The notes beneath the pieces are model-generated. The model was not told where the DNA came from and ran no database searches. It saw nothing but the letters and a program-made list of their open reading frames with translations. 54,590 bases of DNA from Acidimicrobiia bacterium (lineage in GTDB: Bacteria; Acidobacteriota; Vicinamibacteria; Vicinamibacterales; UBA2999): assembly GCA_016871255.1 (NCBI GenBank), contig VFZH01000007.1:1-54590 (forward strand). Direction: 5' to 3'. Shown piece after piece: positions 18,567 through 52,442 of the stretch; the first letter of the stretch is position 1, and the number at the start of each line of letters is the position of its first letter. The position numbers were made by a program, and so were the translations under genes.

Positions 18567-18581
18567 CGGCGCGCGGCGTCA

Positions 18582-18630
18582 AGTTCCGAACCCCGAACCC
18601 CAGGACCCGGGCCGAATCCCAACGTCCAGA
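18582..18630. repeat. degenerate heptamer array upstream of glgA
   Basis: Period-7 C-rich words (CGAACCC, CGAACCC, CAGGACC, CGGGCCG, AATCCCA) lie between divergent fdhE and glgA. It is the most decayed member of a family seen at five other intergenic sites in this window. Confidence 0.5.
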
Positions 18631-18676
18631 CGCCCGACGTGTCCTGAACCGTGCGCCGTGCGATCCTGTTCTCCCC

Positions 18677-36020: not shown

Positions 36021-36181
36021 CAAGTCCCACATCCCGAATCCCAAGACCCAAGCCGAATCCCAACGCCCGAGACGCAACGCAGACCTCACGCTTCTATCCT
36101 CAATCGCCAATCCTGACTCGTCAATGCAATCACCAATCCTCACTCGTCAATGCAATCACCAATCCGCAATCGCGAATCCCC
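36021..36181. repeat. heptamer array between mnmA and cysteine desulfurase, with a 24-nt direct repeat
   Basis: The first half is a run of AATCCCA-like heptamers (ATCCCGA, ATCCCAA, GACCCAA, GCCGAAT). The second half is built of CAATC-CC words and holds a perfect 24-nt direct repeat at 36116-36139 and 36142-36165. It begins 5 bp upstream of the mnmA start codon. Base composition is far lower in GC than flanking genes. Confidence 0.75.
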
Positions 36182-36186
36182 AATGA

Positions 36187-39491: not shown

Positions 39492-39562
39492 CCGCCCGCT
39501 TCGCCTTTCCGGACGACTCTGCTAGCATCCTGCGGCTCCATGCAGCGGTGAAGGCCAGGCAG

Positions 39563-39632
39563 AAAATCCCAAATCCCAAAGCCCAAGCCAAATCCCAAAT
39601 CCCAAATCCCAAATCCCAACTTCCGAATCCCA
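39563..39632. repeat. perfect heptamer array with G-quadruplex motif, glpX 5' region
   Basis: A nearly perfect run of AAATCCC units, ending one base before the glpX ATG. On the minus strand it reads GGG-ATTT-GGG four times in a row (tracts at 39594-39617), which satisfies the G3+N1-7 quadruplex rule. It takes the place where a Shine-Dalgarno sequence would be expected. Confidence 0.85.
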
Positions 39633-39633
39633 C

Positions 39634-40623
39634 ATGACTTCAGATCTGTCGCTCGATTTCCTGCGCGTGGTCGAACAGGCGGCCATCGCGTGTGCGCACA
39701 CCATGGGGCAGGGCGATCGCCGCAACTCCGACCGCGTGGCGGTGGAGGCGATGCGCCGGGACCTCGACGCCGTGCCGATCGACGGCACGGTGGTCATCGG
39801 TGAGGGCGAGCGTGACGAGGCGCCGATGCTGTTCATCGGCGAGAAGGTGGGCATGGCGCACCGGAGCGGCAACCCGGGCGCGTACCCGGCCGTGGACATC
39901 GCCGTCGATCCCCTCGAGGGCACCAACCTGTGCGCAACGGGGGCCGCCAACGCCATCGCCGTGCTGGCGGCGTCCACGAAGGGTGGCCTCCTGCACGCGC
40001 CGGACCTGTACATGGAGAAGCTGGTCGTCGGGCCCACGGCGAAGCACGTGGTCGATATCGACGCGCCGGTCAAGGACAACCTGGAGGCGATGGCCAAGGC
40101 GCTCGGCCGGCACGTCACCGATCTGGTGATCATCGTGCTGGACCGGCCGAGGCACGAACAGCTGATCGCCGACATCCGGGCGGCGGGCGCGCGCATCCGG
40201 CTCATCGGCGATGGCGACCTGTCGGCCGGCATCGCGGCGGCGGTCGTGGGCAGCGGCGTCCACGCCGTGATGGGCACGGGCGGCGCACCCGAGGGCGTGC
40301 TGACGGCGGCGGCCATGCGGTGCCTCCACGGAGAGATCTTCGCCCGGCTGGTCGTCACCAGGCCGGAACACGAGGCGCGGTGCCGGGCGATGGGCATCAC
40401 GGATTTCAACCGCGTCTACAGGTCGGGCGATCTCGCGTCGGGCGAGCGGGTCATCTTCGCGGCCACCGGCGTGACGGACGGGACGCTGATGAAGGGGGTG
40501 CGGTTCTTCGGGGACGGCACGCGCACGGCGTCCCTGGTCATGCAGACCCACCCGCACCAGGTGCGCTTCATCGACAGCATCCACATCACGTCTGGCAGGG
40601 AGGACGTGAAGCTGCGGTTCTGA
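39634..40623 (+). CDS. glpX: class II fructose-1,6-bisphosphatase
   Basis: 329 aa, normal for GlpX. Lithium-sensitive phosphatase motifs are [18 protein letters not shown] and [18 protein letters not shown], followed by YMEKLVVGP and [15 protein letters not shown]. It removes the 1-phosphate of fructose 1,6-bisphosphate in gluconeogenesis (or sedoheptulose bisphosphate in some bacteria). The ATG is directly preceded by the heptamer array, with no ribosome binding site. It is followed 5 nt later by hflX. Confidence 0.95.
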
Positions 40624-41891: not shown

Positions 41892-42026
41892 CAAGTCCCC
41901 AAGTCCCGAGATCCCACACCCCAAGCCAGATCCCAACGCCCGAATCCCAACCCGGATTCCAATCCTCAATCCTCAATCGGCAATCGCCAATGCCATCGTC
42001 AATCACCAATCCCTAATCACCAATTG
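41892..42026. repeat. heptamer array between hflX and pgsA
   Basis: It starts one base after the hflX stop. The first half has CAAGTCC, CAAGTCC, ATCCCAC, ATCCCAA, GCCCGAA and ATCCCAA words; the second half has CAATCCT, CAATCGG, CAATCGC and CAATCAC words. It is the same two-part design as the array at 36021-36181 and equally low in GC. Confidence 0.75.
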
Positions 42027-42039
42027 CCCTGGTCCGCGG

Positions 42040-42765: not shown

Positions 42766-43545
42766 ATGGGGCGAATCGGTCGTTCGCTGTTTCTCGTTGC
42801 ACTGCTGACCGGCATTCCCGGCCTGGCGCCTGCCGCGCCCTTCTCGCTCTACGTCCAGCCCATTCAGGTTTGCAACGACGCTGGAACCGTGTGCGCGAAC
42901 TCGGCACAGACGCTGTACGAAGCCGAAGGTGACAAGATCTGGGCGCAGGCGGGCATCGACCTCGTGTTCCTCCCGTGGGTGCAGTTTCTCGAGACGGACT
43001 ACCTGTCGATTACCGACCCGAGCATCGACGCCACCGAGTTGTTCGACATGTGGGGTGAGGGCCACGTCCCGGGGGCGGTGAACATGTGGTTCGTTCAGAC
43101 CCTCGAGAGCGCCGGTACGGCGTACGGCATCGCGCTGCTGGGCACGGTCGTCGGAGCCGGCTTCGCGGCGATTGCGGACGCGGTATTCAGCTACGCCGGG
43201 GGAGCCGGACGACGCGACACGATCGCGCACGAGATCGGCCACGTGCTCGGGCTCCCGCACTACAACTTCAGCGAGCCCGCGTGTACTCCGCCCGCTGACA
43301 GCGCGCAGAACCTGATGACCAGCGGGTCCTGCCGGTCGCCGGTGACCAACATCAGCCAGATCACCCCGGATGGCGCGATGCTGGCTCGATTGACGTCCGC
43401 TCAGATTGCCACGGCCCTCGAGAGCGATCTCCTGTTCGACGAGGCCATGGAGCCGATCCCCGAACCCGCGTCGCTGCTGCTGCTCGGTGGCGGCCTGCTG
43501 CTGGGGCATCGGCGCCTGCGCCGCCGGGGCGGGAAGGGCGAGTAG
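42766..43545 (+). CDS. PEP-CTERM-sorted zinc metalloprotease
   Basis: 259 aa. A signal peptide (GRSLFLVALLTGIPGLAPAAP) precedes a catalytic domain with the metzincin-type zinc motif HEIGHVLGLPH (HExxHxxGxxH). The C-terminus is a PEP-CTERM sorting signal: IPEPASLLLLGGGLLLG followed by HRRLRRRGGKGE. Exosortase would process it and retain it at the outer surface, usually together with exopolysaccharide. The downstream exopolysaccharide locus fits this. The exosortase gene is not in the window. Confidence 0.9.
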   Translation: MGRIGRSLFLVALLTGIPGLAPAAPFSLYVQPIQVCNDAGTVCANSAQTLYEAEGDKIWAQAGIDLVFLPWVQFLETDYLSITDPSIDATELFDMWGEGHVPGAVNMWFVQTLESAGTAYGIALLGTVVGAGFAAIADAVFSYAGGAGRRDTIAHEIGHVLGLPHYNFSEPACTPPADSAQNLMTSGSCRSPVTNISQITPDGAMLARLTSAQIATALESDLLFDEAMEPIPEPASLLLLGGGLLLGHRRLRRRGGKGE

Positions 43546-43552
43546 GGCGCGT

Positions 43553-44104
43553 CTATCGTCCTCGCGACAGCTGGACGGTTCGCAGGTCCACCCAGAGATC
43601 GATGCCGGCGACTGTCGGCACCACTGCCCGCCCCGCGCGTGGGTCGAGCATGGCGGGCCGTCGCATCCAGGGTCCGAAACGCTCGTTCGAGGGAAGCGAA
43701 CCCAGGCGGACGCCCAGTGCGTCCTCGACGTCCTCGAACGACCATTCCTGCCTCACCTTCCCGTCCGCACCGATCACCATCACGGCGTAACGGCTGAAGA
43801 TGTTGATCCACTCGTCGAGGCAGACCACGATACCCATGTCGCTGACGAGCGCCTGGCGCGGGCCGAACTCCTGCGGCAGCTCGCGTGCCCAGACCCGCGC
43901 GGTGCCCCTCGAGAGCTCGGCGTGCGCCCGCCGGGATCTCCAGCCGTCCTGCGTGGACAGCACGAGCCGGTACGCGCCCGATGGCGAGGTCATCTCCTGT
44001 CGCGCCGGCGGGTGAGGAACGAAGTCGGTCACAGGCCGTTGCGCCCCAGAGGGCGAGGGCACGAGCGCCGCCAGCAGCATGACACCTCCCAGCGAGCGTC
44101 CCAT
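43553..44104 (-). CDS. secreted protein of unknown function
   Basis: 183 aa. A signal peptide (GGVMLLAALVPSPSGAQ) is followed by a soluble domain with a few beta-strand repeats: SPSGAYRLVLSTQDGWRSRRAHAEL, RYAVMVIGADGKVRQEWSFEDV and VPTVAGIDLWVDLRTVQL. The pattern of strands ending in WSFEDV resembles secreted beta-propeller or lipocalin-like fragments, but I do not recognise a family. Convergent with the PEP-CTERM metalloprotease gene, 7 bp between stops. Confidence 0.6.
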   Translation of the reverse strand: MGRSLGGVMLLAALVPSPSGAQRPVTDFVPHPPARQEMTSPSGAYRLVLSTQDGWRSRRAHAELSRGTARVWARELPQEFGPRQALVSDMGIVVCLDEWINIFSRYAVMVIGADGKVRQEWSFEDVEDALGVRLGSLPSNERFGPWMRRPAMLDPRAGRAVVPTVAGIDLWVDLRTVQLSRGR

Positions 44105-44150
44105 GCCGCGATTGTACGGCCCACGGACGATCGAAGCGTGACCCCGTGAC

Positions 44151-44211
44151 CCTTTGGGCTTTGGTCCCTGGGATTCGGCTTGGGATTCGGGATTCGGGAT
44201 TCGGGACTTGA
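44151..44211. repeat. heptamer array with G-quadruplex motif, G-rich on the plus strand
   Basis: Units GGGATTC/GGGATTT lie between two minus-strand genes, upstream of the secreted protein gene. Four GGG tracts at 44182, 44189, 44196 and 44203 separated by ATTC meet the quadruplex rule. It is the same family as the array before glpX, in opposite orientation. Confidence 0.8.
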
Positions 44212-44227
44212 AACGCAGCCCGCGTCT

Positions 44228-45181
44228 CTACGGGCGGTCTGCGACCTTCTCTCGAAAGTAACCCACCGTCCGGACCAGCCCTTCTCTCAGGCCGACCCCG
44301 GGTGCCCATCCGAGCAGCGTGCGCGCCCGCGTGACGTCCGGCCGGCGCTGTTTCGGATCGTCGACCGGCAGGGGGCGGTGGACGATCCGGCTGGTCGAGC
44401 CGGTCAGCTCGATGATCGACCGGGCGATCTCCTCGATCGTGACCTCGTGCGGGTTCCCGATGTTGATCGGATCGTGTGTGTCGGCCTCCATCAGGCGGAG
44501 GACGCCGTCGACCAGGTCGCTGATGAACGTGAAGCTGCGCGTCTGCGTGCCGTCGCCGAAGACGGTGACGTCTTCGTTCGCGAGCGCCTGCGTCATGAAC
44601 GCAGGCACCGCCCGGCCGTCCCGGAGCCGCATGCGCGGACCGTAGGTGTTGAAGATCCGGACGATGCGGGTGTCCAGGCCGTGGTACCGGTGGTAGGCAA
44701 GGGTGATGGCTTCGGCGAATCGCTTGGCCTCGTCGTACACGCCACGGGGGCCGATGGGGTTCACGTTGCCCCAGTAGGTTTCCCTCTGGGGGTGTTCCAG
44801 GGGGTCGCCGTACACCTCGGATGTGGAGGCCAGCACGAACGTCGCGCCCTTGGCCTTGGCCAGGCCGAGCGCGTTGTGCGTGCCGAGCGACCCGACCTTC
44901 AGCGTCTGGATCGGCAGCTCGAGGTAGTCGATCGGGCTGGCGGGGCTCGCCCAGTGGAGCACGTAGTCGACCGGGTCGTCCACGTCGATGTAGCGGGTGA
45001 CGTCGTGCCGGATGAACTGGAGGTCGCGCTCCCGCAGGTGCGCGATGTTGGCCAGGTCGCCGGTGAGCAGGTTGTCGATCGCCACCACGGCGTGGCCGCG
45101 ATCCAGCAGCGCCTCGCAGAGATGGGAGCCGATGAAGCCGGCAGCCCCGGTGACGACGGTTCGCGGGCGGCGGTCAGCCAT
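44228..45181 (-). CDS. uxs: UDP-glucuronate decarboxylase (UDP-xylose synthase)
   Basis: 317 aa, an extended short-chain dehydrogenase. NAD motif [21 protein letters not shown], then [24 protein letters not shown], the catalytic [16 protein letters not shown], and Y-x3-K in [13 protein letters not shown]. The words ASPASP-Y and [13 protein letters not shown] are specific to UDP-glucuronate decarboxylases. It converts UDP-glucuronate to UDP-xylose. Ugd, which makes its substrate, is encoded 7 kb away in the same locus. It is the last gene of the minus-strand exopolysaccharide run. Confidence 0.93.
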
Positions 45182-45220
45182 CCCGGCGGCCCGCGGCGGA
45201 AGGACGGCGCAGCCGCTGCA

Positions 45221-46660
45221 CTAGGCGACGCCGCGGCTGAAGAGCCCGCGCACGACGGTCAGCCACATGATCTTGATGTCGAGCGTGACCGACCAGTTCT
45301 CGATGTAGTAGAGGTCGTATTCGATGCGTTTCTCCAGCGAGGTGTTGCCGCGCCAGCCGTTCACCTGGGCCCACCCCGTGATGCCGGCCTTCACCTTGTG
45401 GCGGAGCATGTACTGCGGGATGCGGTCCTTGAACTGCGCCACGAAATACGGCCGCTCCGGGCGCGGGCCGACGATCGACATCTCCCCCTTCAGGACGTTC
45501 CAGAACTGCGGCAGCTCGTCGAGGTCGAACCGGCGCAGCCAGCGCCCGGCCGGCGTGCACCGCGGATCGTCGTCTCTCGCCCAGACGGGTCCGCTCGAGT
45601 CCTCGGCGTCTTCGTACATCGAGCGGAACTTCCACACGGTGAACGCCCTGCCGTCGAGGCCCATGCGCTCCTGCTCGTAGAGGACGCGCCCCGGCGACGT
45701 GAGCCGCACCAGCAGGGCGATGAGCAGGCCGGGGACGGCGAGCACGACCAGCGCAGCCGCCGACAGCACGATGTCGATCCCGCGCTTCATCAGCGCGTTG
45801 AAGCCCTGCAGGGGCACGTCGTTGACGTTGATGATGGGGAGCCCGTCCAGGTCTTCGAGCCGCGCCCGCAGCGCGATGAACTGGAGCAGGTCGGGGACCA
45901 CCTTCACGTCGAGGCACTCGCGGCTGGTCACGTTGATCAGGTCGAGCAGTTTCGAGTGCTCCTCGATCGGCAGCGCCACGTACAGGTGATCGGCGCGCTC
46001 GCGGCGGGCGACCTCGGCCACCTCGTCGAGCGAGCCGAGCAGCGGGAGCCCGCGGTAGCCGATGTGATCGCCGGCGGCGCGGTCGTCCACGAAGCCGAGG
46101 ATCTGGTACCCGAGCTCGCGGTGCTGCAGGATGCGGTCGGCGACCAGGCGGCCGAGGTCCCCGGCGCCGGCGATCAGCACGCGCTTGAGGCCGATGCCGG
46201 CCCGCCAGCGGCGCTCGAGCAGCTCCCGCACCCCTTCGCGGGAGGCGTAGGCGAACAGCACGTTGATGACGAGGAAGATCGCCCAGACGAGCTGCGAGAC
46301 CTCGTAGGCGCCCTGGGACTTGGCTTCCTCCGACACGTAGTACGCCTGCACGTACAGCGTCGAGACCACGCCCAGCACGACCGCCAGGATGCTGCCGATC
46401 AGCACGCCGAAGAAGTCGTCCACGCGCGAGCGGCCGCGGCGCAGCCGGTACACGCCCTGCAGGTGGAAGGCCAGCGGCGTGAGCAGGGCCACGAACGGCA
46501 GCACGTTGACGTACTGGTCGATCGGCGGGTACCCCTTCCGCACGGGGATCAGTCCGCTCTCGAAGCGGATCCCGTACGCGAGGACGAACGCCCAGGCGGC
46601 CAGCAGCACGTCCACGAGGACGTGGAAGGCCACGAGCAGGCGGTTGTACCGTCTCACCAT
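45221..46660 (-). CDS. polyprenyl-phosphate sugar-1-phosphate transferase
   Basis: 479 aa from the ATG at 46660. Four N-terminal membrane segments (LLVAFHVLVDVLLAAWAFVLAYGI and on) are followed by a CoA-binding-like domain (VLIAGAGDLGRLVADRIL), another membrane helix, and the catalytic domain with FTVWKFRSMYEDAE, DELPQFWNVLKGEMSIVGPRPE and KAGITGWAQVNGWRG. It belongs to the WbaP/WcaJ/CpsE family, which starts repeat-unit synthesis by moving a sugar-1-phosphate to undecaprenyl phosphate. Its start overlaps the stop of the upstream glycosyltransferase. Confidence 0.95.
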   Translation of the reverse strand: MVRRYNRLLVAFHVLVDVLLAAWAFVLAYGIRFESGLIPVRKGYPPIDQYVNVLPFVALLTPLAFHLQGVYRLRRGRSRVDDFFGVLIGSILAVVLGVVSTLYVQAYYVSEEAKSQGAYEVSQLVWAIFLVINVLFAYASREGVRELLERRWRAGIGLKRVLIAGAGDLGRLVADRILQHRELGYQILGFVDDRAAGDHIGYRGLPLLGSLDEVAEVARRERADHLYVALPIEEHSKLLDLINVTSRECLDVKVVPDLLQFIALRARLEDLDGLPIINVNDVPLQGFNALMKRGIDIVLSAAALVVLAVPGLLIALLVRLTSPGRVLYEQERMGLDGRAFTVWKFRSMYEDAEDSSGPVWARDDDPRCTPAGRWLRRFDLDELPQFWNVLKGEMSIVGPRPERPYFVAQFKDRIPQYMLRHKVKAGITGWAQVNGWRGNTSLEKRIEYDLYYIENWSVTLDIKIMWLTVVRGLFSRGVA

Positions 46661-51123: not shown

Positions 51124-51170
51124 ACTTTGGGACTTGGGCCTTGGGATTTGGCTTGGGCTTTGGGATTTGA
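51124..51170. repeat. heptamer array, G-rich on the plus strand
   Basis: Words TTGGGAC, TTGGGCC, TTGGGAT, TTGGCTT, GGGCTTT and GGGATTT lie between the Nudix remnant and the end of the next glycosyltransferase gene. It is the same family as the arrays at 39563 and 44151, less regular. Confidence 0.7.
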
Positions 51171-51176
51171 CGCCCT

Positions 51177-52304
51177 TCACCCTCTCTCCCGTCTTCGTCT
51201 GAGCGCGTCGCCGTAGGCCTGCCAGAGGGTTGCCGCCGCCCGTTCCCAGGAGAACTCGCGAGCGCGCGCCAGGCCGCGTTCCGCGCAATCGCGCGCCACG
51301 GCGGCGTCGTCGAGCAGGCGCGCCAGTGCCGCCGTGAAGGCGTCGAGGTCGTCCGGGTCGACCAGCACGCCCGCCTCGCCGACCACCTCCGGCAGCGATC
51401 CGCGGCTGGCCGCCACCACCGGCACGCCGGCCGACATGGCTTCGAGGACCGGCAGACCGAAGCCTTCATCGCGGGACGGGAGCACGAGCAGGCGCGCGCC
51501 TGACAGGAGATCCTCCCGCTGCTCGGCCGGGACATAGCCCAGATGGCGCACGTGGCCGGAAAGGGGCGGCCGCGACCAGCGCTCGGCCCAGGCCTCGGCG
51601 TCAGGCGTGATCCGTCCCGCCAGCACCAGATCCGGCGTCGCAGGACGCCGCTGGAGCAGCCGTTCGTAGGCATCCAGCAAGGCGCCAACGTTCTTGCGCG
51701 GCTCGAGGGTGCCCACGAACAGGACGTAGCCGTCCGCTGGCACGTTGGGCTGGCGGCCCAGCGTGCGCCACGTCGGGGCTCCCGGCGAGCAGACGTAGAC
51801 ACGTTCCCCGGGCACGCTGAACGTGCCGCTGACCAGCGACCCGGTGTAGCGGGAGGGGACGACGATCGCATCTGCGCGGCGCGCGTGCCGGGCTGCCAGC
51901 GCAGGGTAGTCCCGCCGGATTTCCGCGGCCGTGCGCTCGGGATGCGCCAGGAAGTAAAGGTCGTGGATGGTCACGACCTGAGCGGCCTTCGCGGTGGGAA
52001 TCAGCAGCGGATGCGCCGCGTGCACGACGTCGGCAGCGCCGACCAGCCGCTCGACAGGTGGCCATGCCTGCCGGTGCCAGAGATAGTTGAGCAGCCGGAC
52101 CGGCACGCGGCGGTCGATGATCGGGGCACCCACGTCGGCCGAGGCACCGGGCGACGGCCGATCCCGCCAGGACGAGGTGAACAGGGCGATCTCGTCGGCG
52201 TCGGAGGGCCGCTGGTGGACGGCAGCCCTGGCCAGGCCGTGCATGTACTCCCCAACACCGGTCCGGCTCCTGAGGGCCGGCCGATAGTCGATGACGACCC
52301 GCAC
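51177..52304 (-). CDS. glycosyltransferase family 4
   Basis: 375 aa from the GTG at 52304 (VRVVIDYRPALRSRTGVGEYMHGLAR); a GTG at 52322 gives 6 more residues. GT-B markers: VVTIHDLYFLAHPERT, AIVVPSRYTGSLVSG, VLFVGTLEPRKNVGALLDAYERL, and LPSRDEGFGLPVLEAMSAGVPVVAASRGSLPEVVGEAGVLVDPDD. Fifth glycosyltransferase of the locus. It is divergent from ugd, with a 138-bp intergenic region. Confidence 0.92.
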   Translation of the reverse strand: MRVVIDYRPALRSRTGVGEYMHGLARAAVHQRPSDADEIALFTSSWRDRPSPGASADVGAPIIDRRVPVRLLNYLWHRQAWPPVERLVGAADVVHAAHPLLIPTAKAAQVVTIHDLYFLAHPERTAAEIRRDYPALAARHARRADAIVVPSRYTGSLVSGTFSVPGERVYVCSPGAPTWRTLGRQPNVPADGYVLFVGTLEPRKNVGALLDAYERLLQRRPATPDLVLAGRITPDAEAWAERWSRPPLSGHVRHLGYVPAEQREDLLSGARLLVLPSRDEGFGLPVLEAMSAGVPVVAASRGSLPEVVGEAGVLVDPDDLDAFTAALARLLDDAAVARDCAERGLARAREFSWERAAATLWQAYGDALRRRRERG

Positions 52305-52442
52305 GGCCGGGAAGCGTAGCACAGCCCCTGCCGCAGCCTGTCCCGGCTTCGTTGCTGCAAGTCCTTTGTTTTCAGCATGGTGACAGGGATGGCCCGGTGT
52401 GGTACCGTCAGGAACTTTCCATTCTGTCGGGGTTGATCAGCC

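Follow-up and report, generated by a model that had tools for sequence, protein, structure and literature searches.

A heptad array past the stop codon of an epimerase gene

The window, a 54,590-nucleotide stretch from a ~3.9-Mb Vicinamibacterales (Acidobacteriota) draft genome, contains a short G-rich array flanked by two minus-strand genes. Its plus-strand core at 44182-44205 is GGGATTCGGGATTCGGGATTCGGG, four GGG tracts split by ATTC spacers. The features of the locus are as follows.

44228-45181, minus strand: upstream gene, NAD-dependent epimerase/dehydratase family (PF01370)
44151-44209, minus strand: whole element, with the C-rich strand as sense (61.1 bits with profile R1)
44182-44205, plus strand: (GGGATTC)3GGG, the four-heptad block on the stop side (sequence, shuffle test)
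44177-44181, plus strand: GGCTT pentamer (AAGCC on the C strand), which breaks the heptad register
43553-44104, minus strand: 183-aa ORF downstream, its N-terminus signal-like

The (GGGATTC)3GGG array, exactly as the sequence-only reading had described it, is confirmed as real and beyond chance: the window has three sites with four GGG tracts in heptad register, where dinucleotide shuffles predict 0.01, the other two sites (39594-39617 and 36026-36049) both being on the minus strand. At 44151-44209 a longer element surrounds this core; its array at 44156-44209 consists on the plus strand of GGGCTTT, GGTCCCT, GGGATTC, the pentamer GGCTT, GGGATTC three times over and GGGACTT, in that order. The array had also been placed upstream of a minus-strand gene for a secreted protein, and this agrees with the ORF at 43553-44104, for which no Pfam match was found; overlooked was the epimerase stop codon 18 nt before the array. 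Read along the minus-strand genes, the array begins 18 nt past that stop and ends ~50 nt ahead of the ORF, so that it is a 3′ untranslated region (3′ UTR) element of the epimerase gene as much as an upstream element of the ORF.

We found no intrinsic terminator (GC-rich stem and T run) at 44060-44260, no sigma-70 promoter at the array site and no Rfam match at gathering score in the whole window, and accordingly reject a terminator, a promoter or a known RNA family as the identity of the site. The neighbouring region 42766-43545 encodes a secreted protein resembling metallopeptidases, with a PEP-CTERM sorting motif at its C-terminus; polysaccharide genes lie nearby at 44228-46660.

The element is dispersed and has a fixed internal plan

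Arrays and gene neighbourhoods were analysed in 2.60 Mb of the 3.91-Mb draft (about two thirds), chosen to include every array-pattern match, with genes called by a simple codon-usage caller for which stops are exact and start codons approximate. With an array defined as at least three GGGMYTY words, there are 61 arrays in the 2.60 Mb, compared with 4 when the words are reversed; they are dispersed and mostly intergenic, 7 of the 61 being intragenic by score and these mostly at gene ends. The commonest units in this genome are GGGATTT, GGGATTC, GGGCTTT and GGGACTT. Array length is 7n+5 in 40 of the 61, owing to a single pentamer that reads GGCTT on the G strand and AAGCC on the C strand, and the typical plan is four heptads, this pentamer and three heptads, ~54 nt altogether. 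Counted from the stop side, the pentamer most frequently comes after four heptads (19/36), then three heptads or one, and the array usually ends after the third post-pentamer heptad. The second post-pentamer heptad is distinctive (AACGCCC, AAGGCCC), with 19% matching RARKCCC as against 42-73% for other internal heptads. Units within an element are slightly more similar to each other (0.730 vs 0.710); the recurrent pentamer and the distinctive heptad do not fit a simple slippage array, which we reject. There is no conserved sequence in the flanks beyond the array, which speaks against the ends or target duplication of a mobile element, and neither a terminal repeat nor a mobilising gene was found with the elements.

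A profile (R1) built from 23 copies and used to search the whole genome gave 113 matches at E<=0.1, including the one at 44151-44209. The array at 44182-44205 is one of ~100 dispersed copies of a ~54-nt repeat with a seven-base step. Further copies in the window, all found with the profile, are listed here together with two arrays of a second heptad family.

18581-18633, plus strand: weaker copy (27.3 bits), C strand on plus, between two start ends
36022-36080, plus strand: copy, C strand on plus, in a long gap between convergent genes
39564-39631, plus strand: copy, profile match at 39564-39613, C strand on plus, directly before glpX (39634-40623) and 72 nt past the preceding stop
41898-41954, plus strand: copy 6 nt past the hflX stop; a CAATCNN heptad array comes next
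51124-51169, minus strand: copy 7 nt past the stop of a glycosyltransferase gene (51177-52322)
41962-42028: CAATCNN array
36096-36184: CAATCNN array

The second family, (CAATCNN)n with a CAATG pentamer, comprises 64 arrays in the 2.60 Mb (reversed control 0) and has no G-tracts and no clear strand bias. The genome thus carries two unrelated unit families with a similar 7/5 step plan, AAATCCC with pentamer AAGCC and CAATCNN with pentamer CAATG. Eleven of 62 CAATCNN arrays share a gap with the AAATCCC family, always downstream of it and on the same strand. Among 35 CAATCNN arrays preceding a same-strand start, 10 end within 10 nt of that start, and in some the CAATG supplies the ATG.

Elements are oriented relative to the upstream stop codon

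From two arrays, the sequence-only reading had suggested that the G-rich strand is the template strand with respect to the neighbouring gene. Tabulated across the 2.60 Mb, orientation is not random, and in codirectional gaps the G-rich strand is template for 30 elements and coding for 15 (p=0.036); a genome-wide bias therefore stands, although its anchor is the stop codon and not the start. The 61 arrays include 21 G=template and 8 G=coding in codirectional gaps, 17 in convergent gaps and 6 in divergent gaps; relative to the 576 codirectional, 281 divergent and 152 convergent gaps of at least 60 nt, arrays are over-represented between convergent genes and under-represented between divergent ones.

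Strand was evaluated with 80 merged elements (E<=0.001) in the 2.60 Mb, each counted as independent. Of the elements no more than 40 nt past a stop codon, 42 have the C-rich strand as sense and 8 the G-rich strand (p=1e-6). Random place and strand within the same gaps give 17.1 +/- 3.1 C-sense elements, 42 being reached in none of 1000 relocations, and random gaps give 6.7 +/- 2.6; elements begin a median of 13 nt past the upstream stop. In the 40 nt ahead of a start codon there are 7 C-sense and 15 G-sense elements, the opposite direction (p=0.13), and 26 of 77 elements have a start rather than a stop on their C-sense 5′ side. The reference point for orientation is the stop codon of the upstream gene and not the start of the downstream gene, and the template bias in codirectional gaps arises because the C-rich strand is sense after the preceding stop. 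A template-strand quadruplex rule at start codons is accordingly rejected as the main rule, and a genome-wide stop-codon rule takes the place of a two-case hunch about quadruplexes and gene starts. One of those two cases, the glpX array, is less typical in that a start codon adjoins it and the upstream stop is 72 nt distant. The glpX start comes directly after the array (39560-39634) with no Shine-Dalgarno-like sequence between them, and the leader RNA is predicted to be fully unstructured.

Period and position persist in relatives, sequence does not

Strand in relatives was compared at glpX loci totalling 736 kb from 80 related genomes and at a few short loci. Period 7 is the commonest tandem period at the glpX loci (54 TRF rows), with units as diverse as CTTCTAA, CAACTTC, CGAAGAA and ACAGGGA. 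Among the 52 intergenic array rows, 45 fall in the first 60 nt after a stop and none falls between divergent genes; on the sense strand C exceeds G in 21 and G exceeds C in 24, counts that include some overlapping rows and related genomes. C-richness and G-tracts are therefore not what the genomes share; period and place are. In Vicinamibacterales the arrays keep their heptad spacing and their location after stops, but vary in sequence and strand composition. C-rich sense RNA is thus no order-wide rule, and since the relatives' arrays are of unrelated sequence and have no C-strand preference, a quadruplex cannot be the shared rule either. The post-stop period-7 arrays at these glpX loci often form inverted pairs.

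The gap before glpX, where the upstream gene is the same, is -8 to 168 nt long and without the element in 31 relatives; here it is 142 nt with the element. One relative (locus L209, 3786-3823) has a GAGACTT heptad array directly before glpX, in the same place but with an unrelated unit. Three relatives have hflX-pgsA gaps of 5, 10 and 58 nt; in this genome that gap measures 163 nt and contains the element and a CAATC array. The exact signature CCCAAGCCRARTCCC occurs 38 times in this genome and once in 118 relatives, and looser profile matches are found in about half of 59 genomes. Judged from these comparisons, the elements in the glpX and hflX-pgsA gaps look like recent additions of this lineage. 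A conserved glpX regulatory site is rejected, as the glpX loci of the 80 relatives hold only one GGG-heptad array, at a locus edge.

Possible roles of the element

Our tentative preference is for a lineage-specific, dispersed post-stop heptad element with its C-rich strand as sense, which would act, if at all, as a Rho-loading site. As part of the upstream gene's 3′ UTR it would be transcribed with the C-rich strand as sense, and a start typically ~13 nt past the stop is perhaps roughly where RNA leaves the terminating ribosome. Past that ribosome the transcript would be a C-rich, G-poor and nearly unstructured ribbon, on which Rho could load and end transcription ahead of the next gene. The C-sense RNA of the elements has a (C-G)/length of +0.28, compared with 0.00 in other post-stop stretches, and a minimum free energy of -3.6 kcal/mol per 54 nt, compared with -19.9. 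Intrinsic terminators follow none of the 42 post-stop elements, and intrinsic-terminator-like signals are found at only 1.8% of control stops in this genome (gaps of at least 100 nt). The genome encodes Rho (PRK09376, 712 bits). Published criteria for rut sites are a C-rich, G-poor, unstructured RNA with regularly spaced C residues (PMC6407284; PMC9160355); the elements have these properties and lie right after a translated region, and elements are distinguished from controls by a six-C ladder score (p=8e-23) adapted from such criteria (PMC6407284). Rut sites are not known to share a conserved repeat unit, whereas the element has one, and the action of Rho here is putative. A Rho-loading role in this genome is plausible from these sequence properties. 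The element is not a general terminator, because only a small part of the gap-facing stop codons bears one; the relatives' post-stop heptad arrays, G-rich in sense in 24 and C-rich in 21, argue against a general rut role, and the 26 elements with a start on the C-sense 5′ side argue against the Rho reading itself.

A repeat with no function is only a little less likely: slippage or copying would have produced a dispersed repeat or heptamer microsatellite that is tolerated just after stops and removed elsewhere, with the strand bias a product of its generation or insertion. The shorter, element-free orthologous gaps checked in relatives and the near confinement of the exact signature to this genome are consistent with this, as are the dominance of period 7 among tandem arrays here and in relatives, whatever the unit, and post-stop placement in relatives without C or G preference. 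Slippage alone, however, yields neither a pentamer recurring after four heptads nor a distinctive second heptad past it, no conserved flank, terminal repeat or mobilising gene was found, and the 42:8 strand bias would need an unexplained source. Transcripts should end at the elements if these have a role in RNA, for instance in Rho loading; an origin by slippage or copying carries no such prediction. The heptad arrays may alternatively belong to an order-wide, fast-turning class in Vicinamibacterales that keeps its step plan and not its sequence, the spacing being read or written by a periodic RNA-binding or ring-shaped factor or by a dedicated copying mechanism; we consider this unlikely.

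The sequence-only reading had taken the shared template-strand orientation of two quadruplex-forming arrays as a sign of selection; a G-quadruplex in the template strand could pause RNA polymerase or otherwise regulate transcription. Four GGG tracts with 4-nt loops do match the quadruplex pattern, the related (GGGAATC)3GGG forms one in vitro (PMC4692102), and the 30 to 15 template excess in codirectional gaps has the right sense. The bias is nevertheless absent at start codons, 64% of elements retain all four stop-side tracts, where independent decay would give 63%, and both the CAATCNN family and many post-stop heptad arrays of relatives do without G-tracts, so that a quadruplex may form but is unsupported as the target of selection, and this explanation is distinctly unlikely. 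Less likely still is that each element is half of an inverted pair, in which a C-array and a G-array would fold into a long 3′-terminal stem on convergent transcripts. In every one of the 11 opposite-strand pairs lying no more than 500 nt apart, the C-array does come before the G-array (p=0.001), and inverted pairs occur in relatives and in Xanthomonas (PMC4692102); but only 22 of 105 merged elements are paired, the copy at 44151-44209 is single, and the same order is expected in convergent gaps if every stop has its own element.

Relation to known repeats

Such heptamer repeats have been described in other bacteria; what is new is the fixed internal plan together with the position relative to stop codons, and the proposed job is a candidate only. 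A literature search turned up no description of such arrays from this order, though this does not prove that none exists. The reason for the seven-base preference of bacterial repeats, an old question, becomes testable. The elements resemble REP-type elements in being short, dispersed, often post-stop and missing at relatives' orthologous sites, and differ in not being palindromes, as REPs are (PMC3733652). TAACTGA arrays of Beggiatoaceae, Cyanobacteria and Bacteroidetes (MacGregor 2015, PMC4679880) are likewise abundant intergenic direct heptamer repeats, for which an RNA-level role has been suggested; their unit differs, and they lie mostly a few nt before starts, whereas the arrays described here lie mostly after stops.

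A close parallel is found in Xanthomonas and Nostoc, whose quadruplex-forming heptamer repeats GGGNATC and GGGGAYT (Rehm et al. 2015, PMC4692102) are also G-rich, dispersed and mostly intergenic, prefer four units, lie near ORF ends, form inverted pairs and are few between divergent genes. The unit here is GGGATTY-like rather than GGGAATC and fits neither GGGNATC nor GGGGAYT, and the arrays have a pentamer and a 4-5-3 plan. Near stops it is the G strand that is sense in Xanthomonas, where overall strand bias is not clear (30% vs 35%; PMC4692102), and the C strand here. In a single-contig relative (G056, loci L254-L283) we observed GGGAGTC/GGGAATC arrays, GGGAATC being the Xanthomonas unit, which partly lie near ORFs on the G-strand 5′ side, unlike the AAATCCC family; in the few short loci of this small sample, their polarity seemed different from that of GGGCCTT arrays.
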